64,000 nucleotides of DNA from Annona cherimola (Eukaryota > Streptophyta > Magnoliopsida > Magnoliales > Annonaceae), in NCBI GenBank assembly GCA_030490835.1, contig CM059977.1:35361676-35425675 (forward strand), given 5' to 3'. A model generated the notes under the pieces. It saw nothing but the letters and a program-made list of their open reading frames with translations. It was not told the origin of the DNA and searched no databases. This document shows positions 58,831-60,655 of this stretch, one piece after another; the first letter of the stretch is position 1; the number at the start of each line of letters is the position of its first letter. Made by a program: the position numbers and the translations under genes.

Positions 58831-60633
58831 ATGGCATCCCAATCTACTTCCGTTCCCGCATTTGCTGAAGGCCAATCCTTTACAAGGCCACCGTTGTTTG
58901 ATGGGAACAATTTTGGATATTGGAAGCTTCGTATGAAGCAACTCATCATGGCTACCGATATGGACTCTTGGATTGCTATCCAAGATGGAGTAATACTGCC
59001 TACCGATGAACGAGCTTCCAAATGGACCGATGAGGAAGTAAGAATAGTGAAGAGCAATGCCAAAGCTATGAACTCCTTATTTTGTGCTCTCACTGCTTCC
59101 GAGTATGATAGAGTATCCTCTTGCTTAACCGCCAAAGAGATATGGGATACACTAATCTCTATCTACGAAGGAACTTCTCAAGTCCAAGGGACGAGAAGGA
59201 ATATTTTGATTGGAGAACTAGAGAACTTTAGAATGCTAGAAACAGAAAATATTTCTGAAATGTTTGCTAGATTCTCTAAGATTACTAATGCTTTAAAAGG
59301 TCTTGGAAAAGCAATATCTGAATCTGAGCAGGTCATGAAGATTTTAAGAGCTCTACCCGAATCATGGACTCCAAAGATCACTGCAATTGAAGAAGCCAAA
59401 GACCTCAACACGCTGAAGCTTGAAAACTTAATTAGCTCACTTATGTCACATGAGCTAATTAAGAAAAGGAATGAAGATCAACACAGGGGCAAAAGAGCAA
59501 TTGCCTTAAAAGCCGCACAAGACACCGATGACACATCTTCTTCTCAAAATGACGACGAGATTGCTCTACTCACAAAACGATTCAGAAAATTTGTGAGGAA
59601 AGGCAAAAATTTCAGAAGCTTCAAAGAAAGAACTCCCCAAGAGAAGAAGAAAGAATCAACCAAGTGCTACCGATGCGGCGGTTCGGGACATATGCAGGCT
59701 CAATGTCCAACTCCCGAAGAAAACAAGGCAAAAGAACAAAGAAAGGATCGAGGGAACAATAGAAGATTCCAGAAATACAAAGGAAGAGGCATGTACGTAA
59801 ATGATGAAGAATCTACGACGAGTAGCTTCTCAACCGATGACATAGAGGCGGAAGAATGTGCAAGAATTTGCTGCATGGCACAAATCGAGCAAGAAGAACA
59901 AATTACCTCAACAAAAGACACAAGCAATGAAGAGGTAAGTTCCAAACTCTCCCTTTCTAATTCAAGTTATTCTTCCTCTCATGAATGCCTCAAATGTACT
60001 GAATTAGATGAACTACAAACTGCATATGATTCATTATATGAAGAAATGAAGAAATTAGGAAGCAAGTTTACAATTAAGAAGAGACAATGTGATGCAACAA
60101 TAATTGTAAATGGTAAACTTGCAGAAAGATTAGTCAAATTGAAAGATGAAACTGAATTGCTGAAAATGAAGAACAAATCATTAAATGAATCATTAGCTAA
60201 GTTCTCTAATCCAGGAGAAAATGTTAAAATGTTTCTGAATATGACCTCCCAAACACATAAAAGAGGTCTTGGGTATCATACATTTGAGCAAGGAGAAAGT
60301 AGCAAATCAAATGAACAAATACTTGAGAAAAATCAAACTAAAAATACATCTATATACAAGCCACAAAAGAAAAATTTTAAGTGGACTAGAAGACCAATGA
60401 TTGAACCTTTGCATGCTTGGAAACCTACTCCAAGATTACCTTTGGCTTGTAATTTCTGCAATAAGATGGGTCATAAAACTTACAAATGTAATTTTAAGAA
60501 ACTATATGACCATGGTGTTAAATTAGTTTGGGTTCCAAGAAACACAAGATTTGGGCTTTCAAAGTTAGATCAACTTAGATTAGATTCTATTACTAACCCA
60601 AATGGACCCATAAAATGGGTACCAAAAAGATAA
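58831..60633 (+). CDS. gag: Gag of the SIRE-like element (600 residues, intron-retained form)
   Basis: The ATG at 58831 is the first after the leader, and the protein starts MASQSTSVPAFAEGQSFTRP as in the copies at 6339 and 12531. Residues about 20-240 form the copia Gag core (DUF4219/UBN2 type). A CCHC knuckle CYRCGGSGHMQAQC lies at about 279-292. A charged, probably coiled-coil part (about 400-470) follows. A second knuckle, CNFCNKMGHKTYKC, lies at about 540-553. The protein ends GPIKWVPKR. Gag packages RNA into virus-like particles. Residues 369-600 are encoded inside the proposed intron 59935-60655, so this long form needs unspliced RNA. The open, protein-like character of that segment suggests it is or was translated. 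Confidence 0.9.
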   Translation: MASQSTSVPAFAEGQSFTRPPLFDGNNFGYWKLRMKQLIMATDMDSWIAIQDGVILPTDERASKWTDEEVRIVKSNAKAMNSLFCALTASEYDRVSSCLTAKEIWDTLISIYEGTSQVQGTRRNILIGELENFRMLETENISEMFARFSKITNALKGLGKAISESEQVMKILRALPESWTPKITAIEEAKDLNTLKLENLISSLMSHELIKKRNEDQHRGKRAIALKAAQDTDDTSSSQNDDEIALLTKRFRKFVRKGKNFRSFKERTPQEKKKESTKCYRCGGSGHMQAQCPTPEENKAKEQRKDRGNNRRFQKYKGRGMYVNDEESTTSSFSTDDIEAEECARICCMAQIEQEEQITSTKDTSNEEVSSKLSLSNSSYSSSHECLKCTELDELQTAYDSLYEEMKKLGSKFTIKKRQCDATIIVNGKLAERLVKLKDETELLKMKNKSLNESLAKFSNPGENVKMFLNMTSQTHKRGLGYHTFEQGESSKSNEQILEKNQTKNTSIYKPQKKNFKWTRRPMIEPLHAWKPTPRLPLACNFCNKMGHKTYKCNFKKLYDHGVKLVWVPRNTRFGLSKLDQLRLDSITNPNGPIKWVPKR

Positions 60634-60655
60634 GATTTATTTCCTTATTTTTCAG
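59935..60655 (+). other. Proposed retained intron linking gag and pol (721 bp)
   Basis: Donor GAAGAG/GTAAGT is a perfect plant consensus. The acceptor CCTTATTTTTCAG/ATA has a pyrimidine tract. The length, 721, is not a multiple of three. The preceding exon holds 368 whole codons from the gag ATG, and 60656 begins a pol-frame codon, so removal fuses the two in frame. The copies at 7466/7467 and 13658/13659 lack exactly this segment. Confidence 0.8.

Follow-up and report, generated by a model that had tools for sequence, protein, structure and literature searches.

Exact losses of a 721-bp segment point to a facultative intron between gag and pol in a Sirevirus-like Ty1/copia element of Annona cherimola

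In many Sireviruses pol is in the +1 frame relative to gag (PMC2829016, PMC5009743) and internal entry or bypass has been proposed for the production of Pol (PMC2829016). The passages cited here also list, as traits of Sireviruses or SIRE elements, an inverted repeat at the gag/pol boundary (PMC2829016, PMC5009743), a repeated PPT in the linker (PMC2829016), and an extra ORF between pol and the 3' LTR that is present in 74% of SIRE elements (PMC6317226). A 2016 review of the Sireviruses says, in the part cited, that puzzles still await resolution (PMC5009743). In the Ty3/gypsy element Ogre a subset of the transcripts is spliced to give the full polyprotein (PMC6317226), and excerpts of a 2025 review give the strategies as frameshifting or a short spliced Gag RNA and, for plants, name EVADE and Ogre as notable exceptions that carry introns (PMC12786077). 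In the open-licence literature, among the matches listed and in the excerpts they offer, none reports a spliced Gag-Pol in Ty1/copia elements, Sireviruses included. The original prediction for the locus described here, whose author knew of no element with exactly this arrangement, has to be qualified on two counts, namely, that Ogre has a like logic and that this is an element of the Sirevirus kind, whose +1 pol was already known and whose expression is left unexplained in the passages cited (PMC2829016, PMC5009743).

The window, that is, the whole stretch of 64 kb of A. cherimola DNA that was analysed, covers a Ty1/copia element from its 5' LTR through gag and pol into the first part of the linker, the 3' LTR lying outside it. 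The features, in window coordinates, are as follows.

57080-58782, + strand: 5' LTR (TGTTGG...CCAACA), from LTR comparison
58785-58796, + strand: primer binding site TGGTATCAGAGC, after the LTR
58831-60633, + strand: gag ORF of the unspliced RNA, 600 aa, with the C-terminus ...GPIKWVPKR and then the stop, from ORF reading
59665-59706, + strand: first zinc knuckle, CX2CX4HX4C, common to both predicted products (Pfam zf-CCHC, PF00098)
59935-60655, + strand: putative facultative intron, 721 bp, which doubles as the Gag-only C-terminal coding part (232 codons and the stop)
59935-59940, + strand: predicted 5' splice site GAG/GTAAGT, phase 0, after Gag residue 368
60448-60489, + strand: second CX2CX4HX4C motif, intron-internal, found by eye; Pfam makes no call
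60591-60597, + strand: TACTAAC, a consensus match with the presumed branch A at 60596
60603-60624, + strand: hairpin of 9 bp with one bulge, from folding, which encodes part of GPxxxWVP
60614-63718, + strand: pol open frame, 1034 aa, +1 to gag, from ORF reading and Pfam
60631-60633, + strand: Gag stop TAA, within the intron, from ORF reading and comparison of copies
60641-60655, + strand: pyrimidine-rich tract and predicted 3' splice site TTCCTTATTTTTCAG/
66316-68018, past the window end: 3' LTR, from LTR comparison

The LTRs of the window copy are 100% identical across 1708 aligned bases, and the target-site duplication AGTAT is present at both element ends, the 5' one being at 57075-57079. 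Membership in Ty1/copia is clear from Pfam, which finds a copia-type gag domain (PF14223) in Gag and, in pol, gag_pre-integrs, the integrase core rve (pol residues 208-309), and RVT_2 (pol residues 554-797), that is, integrase ahead of RT. A DSG in pol is presumably the protease motif. With respect to the Sirevirus/SIRE traits, pol is in the +1 frame and there is an inverted repeat at the boundary, which we take to be the same as the published motif; of the gag trait of the lineage, a central CCHC with a coiled coil downstream, the CCHC is present (Pfam zf-CCHC); the PPT is repeated, with AAAAAGGGGGAG at 66004 and at 66302; the primer binding site TGGTATCAGAGC is of the tRNA-Met type; and there is an extra ORF after pol. 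This last is a 596-aa open frame between pol and the 3' LTR at 64212-65999 in window coordinates, which was read in L046 (1212-2999), and at the same place L041 has a frame of 748 aa that matches PF20167 (Transposase_32) with an E-value of 9e-11 and 42.3 bits, the cut-off being 45. Judged by these sequence features, its layout matches that of Sireviruses. Repeats with a AAGTCGACT core were also observed in the LTR (57200-57950) and in the linker (63760-63915).

It had been predicted that gag ends in a stop with pol in the +1 frame and that a segment with consensus borders leads from a codon boundary in gag, after residue 368, to a codon boundary in pol. All of this reads as claimed: the stop is at 60631-60633, pol at 60614-63718 overlaps gag by 20 nt, and the 721-bp segment begins with GTAAGT at 59935, ends with TTTTTCAG at 60655, and has codon boundaries at both borders. 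The string AGGTAAGT is found at only two places on the + strand of the 64 kb, 59933 and 62034. The second of these, 62034-62041, is in pol between integrase and RT and is possibly a further splice donor, for example, for the post-pol ORF. It follows from the reading frames that the logic would be the reverse of the one in which the spliced RNA gives Gag. The unspliced RNA would be the genome as well as the mRNA for the 600-residue Gag, the spliced RNA would be the mRNA for a Gag(1-368)-Pol fusion in which the translation of pol would begin at 60656, and the spliced share of the RNA would set the Gag to Gag-Pol ratio, with splice efficiency as the putative control. That the unspliced product would have two zinc knuckles and the spliced product one holds insofar as both motifs are present; the second, which was recognised by eye and draws no Pfam call, is expected solely in the predicted unspliced product.

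The original prediction had named a frame break private to this copy as the outcome that would speak against it, and had called for a comparison of family members. A search of the window's own genome (792 Mb), in which 127 copies were scored out of 16253 candidates, gave the same 1034-aa pol frame in 94 copies by hand count. From the fetched copies 38 introns were cut, 21 of them distinct in sequence, and in 35 of the 38 the length modulo 3 is 1. In 35 of the 38 the first Gag-frame stop is right after WVPKR (32 TAA and 2 TGA) or WVPRR (1 TAA), and in three it is elsewhere. Thus, the frame relation and the gag stop are kept in the family and a break private to the window copy is ruled out. The stop codon differs between lineages, TAA or TGA, and yet remains a stop, which suggests that it is under selection. 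The introns start with GT in 37 of 38 cases and end with CAG in all 38, which is no test because the extraction script required CAG and a loose donor. They fall into an A group of 700-722 bp, with GTAAGT (28) or GTAAGC (2) as the donor, and a B group of 741-743 bp, with GTAACT (7), which is weaker than GTAAGT, or TTAACT (1, in L072, where the GT is lost). Likeness to the window copy is 66-71% for the intron-bearing B copies across the final 600 nt of exon 1 and, in a BLAST comparison of gag, about 80% for the B-type copies without the intron.

When seven copies were compared one by one with the window copy, the intron had a dN/dS of 0.28-0.45 in the Gag frame and 0.40-1.38 in the two other frames, with L048 having a lower value in a wrong frame (0.40) than in the Gag frame (0.45). 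For exon 1 it was 0.06-0.35 and for pol 0.05-0.35, one pair being without substitutions and the values being noisy for pairs with frame-shifting indels (e.g., L070 and L075 in pol). The 600-aa Gag of the unspliced RNA, including its intron-encoded tail, appears to be under purifying selection. In a public protein set GPxxxWVP was found in 15 of 43 Gag homologues, in all 15 at most 10 residues from the C-terminus, and the named sources of these homologues are plants. As judged from these proteins, a Gag that ends at GPxxxWVP is common.

The match to the branch-point consensus TACTAAC (UACUAAC in the RNA) has its place 59 nt upstream of the final base of the intron in all 38 cases. The hairpin lies between this match and the 3' splice site, ahead of the Gag stop, and the pyrimidine-rich tract comes after the stop. 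A pattern made of the branch-point match and the hairpin, with at most one mismatch, occurs at 3638 places genome-wide (1811 + 1827; control 1). As a 37-nt sequence the hairpin has -10.4 kcal/mol and a z of -3.28 (1 of 200 shuffles as good), and in its 91-nt context z is -0.96 (26 of 200 as good), which is not exceptional. The U content of the intron, 29%, is above that of exon 1 (17%) and not above that of exon 2 (30%). The 3' block is identical between copies at 62-63 of 68 positions, no more conserved than pol windows, and the block with the branch-point match and the hairpin was not singled out by sliding identity between subfamilies. We propose that the hairpin, which lies between UACUAAC and CAG, would shorten the path from the branch point to the 3' splice site and would thus serve splicing rather than frameshifting or ribosome bypass; this role is put forward tentatively because conservation does not single out the block and because a conserved peptide is encoded by the same hairpin. 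The hairpin seems to correspond to the inverted repeat described for the Sirevirus gag/pol boundary. A divergent form of the block, TACTAAT...GGGCCC...TGGGTACC, was observed in two copies, at C4:70926364 and C4:71470168, which perhaps belong to another family of the same layout.

The same boundary is where Pol could be made in another way, mainly by +1 frameshifting, bypass, or internal entry, splicing being a side reaction that gives rise to intronless copies without feeding replication. The 20-nt overlap means that stops do not bar a +1 shift, there is an AAAAAG run ahead of the gag stop as well as a short stable hairpin, and recoding, entry, and bypass are what has been proposed for Sireviruses in the passages cited (PMC2829016, PMC5009743). 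However, the A-run is not kept in relatives, which have CCAAAAAGA, CCAAGGAGA, and CCAAAGAGA, whereas the +1 relation is kept, and the hairpin sits before the stop and between two putative splicing signals. Frameshifting at the A-run was rejected because the run is lost in relatives, and the alternative as a whole is unlikely. Splicing as the main route to Pol, with the unspliced RNA giving Gag and the spliced RNA giving Gag-Pol, is in our judgment highly probable.

An intron whose spliced RNA is packaged and reverse-transcribed from time to time should leave copies in the genome that are without exactly this segment, and such copies are there. A junction search with a free gap of 0-12 nt between the exon ends gave seven loci, all seven with a gap of 0 (reversed control 0), this pattern being blind to losses that remove exon bases. 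A relaxed junction pattern (at most 2 mismatches) gave 173 places (85 + 88; control 0), where exactness is partly built in because the pattern demanded the junction itself. A pattern in which the 3' splice site is still in place ahead of this exon 2 gave 3529 places (1762 + 1767; control 2), so that the intronless share is about 5% (173 vs 3529), the two patterns being unequal in specificity and the acceptor count including copies cut upstream. Thirty intronless copies were read, 28 of them picked by the junction or by a long pol frame and two (L069 and L076) through a subfamily marker, and in these the segment homologous to 59935-60655 is exactly absent. The subfamily marker gave ten copies outside the relaxed junction listing, eight with the intron and two exactly without it, and among them there was no other loss of the segment.

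Across the junction the gag frame continues into pol in all five intronless copies that were translated. One long fused frame is present in two of the eight intronless copies fetched at 10 kb, the other six being broken by stops or shifts. These fused gag-pol frames are of 1302 aa in L041 and 1377 aa in L045, and that of L045 has gag, a zinc knuckle, and the integrase and RT domains. L041 has a second deletion, from about 60812 to 61094, with 9 nt of microhomology, after which the fused frame stays open; it resembles what a reverse-transcriptase jump would leave. The LTR pairs of the intronless L039 and L040 are 98.9% and 99.7% alike and their target-site duplications are ATTAT and GATGT, respectively, which shows that these two are insertions made via reverse transcription and not in-place deletions. 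It is very likely, from the sequences of these copies, that spliced RNA has been reverse-transcribed and that this occurred on several sequence backgrounds. Because what is missing from these copies corresponds precisely, GT to AG, to 59935-60655, we infer a true intron. That it is a real facultative intron is very likely, and the splicing itself is more probable still than its being the main route to Pol.

The number of independent losses was estimated from a tree of exon 2 with 69 rows (39 with the intron and 30 without) and one of exon 1 with 67 rows (38 and 29). Rows L001, L006, and L031-L037 were left out as duplicates of longer fetches, and L030, whose fetched stretch is without the donor, and L063, which has a long branch, were left out of the exon 1 tree. 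Over well-supported branches the exon 2 tree has at least 7 changes of intron state (10 by parsimony) and the exon 1 tree at least 10 (14 by parsimony), and intron-bearing and intronless copies occur together in four groups of rows that are identical in exon 1. L041 is identical to the intron-bearing L021 at 600/600 positions of exon 1 and 165/165 of exon 2, and L045 matches intron-bearing copies at 600/600 and 599/600. In subfamily B the intron-bearing L071 is the closest to the intronless L038 on both sides of the junction. L053, L058, and L044 are 599-600/600 identical to a young intron-bearing copy in exon 1 and have 12-35 differences in 600 from the nearest one in exon 2, which suggests that they are mosaics made by template switching at or near the junction. 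Such mosaics, if they come from template switching with older copies that lack the intron, may inflate the number of independent losses, and a cautious floor would be three backgrounds, namely, L041, the group of L045, L055, and L064, and subfamily B.

These mosaics, and the clades that some intronless copies form, are what would be expected if one or two chance deletions had been spread by reverse-transcription recombination with no functional splicing at all. Against this, the loss runs exactly from GT to AG, the ends of the lost segment share only AG, the loss is present in both subfamilies, which are about 80% alike in gag by BLAST, and in L041 and L045 each flank of the junction matches intron-bearing copies, and we regard chance deletion as very improbable. 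Least probable of all is a gain of the intron by an element that was ancestrally without it, for, although a single-ORF gag-pol is the rule in Ty1/copia according to the passages cited (PMC2829016, PMC3735527), the Gag C-terminus in the segment appears to be under selection and is common to full-length Gag homologues in the public protein set, and the intron would have had to arrive at one site several times independently. The original prediction is thus supported: the exact intronless copies speak for the intron, the reversed logic follows from the reading frames, and the Gag tail in the intron shows purifying selection.

Beyond this genome, gene models that join gag to pol were found in other plants, in Citrus (P0064, 104 members, DDDLNE/GLKKKKNKWYLDSG) and in Trifolium (P0045 and P0070), and those of Carya, Cannabis, Actinidia, and some Citrus use other donors; because the donors differ, these models count as weak evidence. 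No relatives were found in viral contigs, and in genome contigs there was one, 34% alike in the N-terminus of pol (L079, 1699-2619), in a contig binned as Trichormus, a cyanobacterium, which is perhaps eukaryotic DNA within that bin. Splicing is a likely answer to the question, dating from 2003, of how elements of this kind express a +1 pol. As to whether this extends to all +1-pol Sireviruses, such that Gag-Pol would come only from spliced RNA, the conserved inverted repeat would be a splicing element, and the conserved pol-frame UAG of the second subset would be the AG of the 3' splice site, we lean only slightly in its favour. The Gag-Pol of a most successful lineage of plant retroelements would then depend on splicing. 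With a facultative intron as proposed here, Ty1/copia would gain a reversed use of splicing, and the place of the inverted repeat at the gag/pol boundary would be explained. The genomic fossils of spliced RNA would be a measure of mis-packaging, and annotators would be warned to treat the gag and the pol of elements of this sort as separate exons.

Among the known systems, the Sireviruses (SIRE1, Opie, and Endovir) share with this element the large CCHC gag, the +1 pol in many members, the inverted repeat at the boundary, the extra ORF between pol and the 3' LTR, and the repeated PPT. They differ in that, in the passages cited, recoding, internal entry, or bypass is proposed for Pol (PMC2829016, PMC5009743). 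Ogre, of the Tat lineage, splices toward Pol, in a like sense as would be the case here, but it is Ty3/gypsy, whereas the element in the window has the copia domain order with integrase before RT (Pfam), and here the intron itself is Gag coding sequence and the protease would need splicing. The pol RNA of foamy virus is spliced and, as proposed here, its Pol comes from spliced RNA and its Gag from the unspliced genome. In foamy virus, however, Pol is made without a Gag-Pol fusion, as stated in the passages cited (PMC7019881, PMC3196705). The barley Ty1/copia element BARE1 has, as is proposed for this one, a facultative intron near the gag/pol border that decides between Gag and Gag-Pol, but in the description cited its intron is 104 nt long and its spliced RNA gives Gag only, the unspliced RNA giving Gag-Pol (PMC3735527). 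RNA splicing for the Gag:Pol balance is also common to shGAG of EVD in Arabidopsis and to Drosophila copia, both Ty1/copia, where, in the excerpts cited, the opposite holds and it is the spliced, shortened RNA that gives Gag (PMC8892269, PMC12786077, PMC3735527). In the element described here, unlike in BARE1 and EVD, the spliced frame runs into pol.
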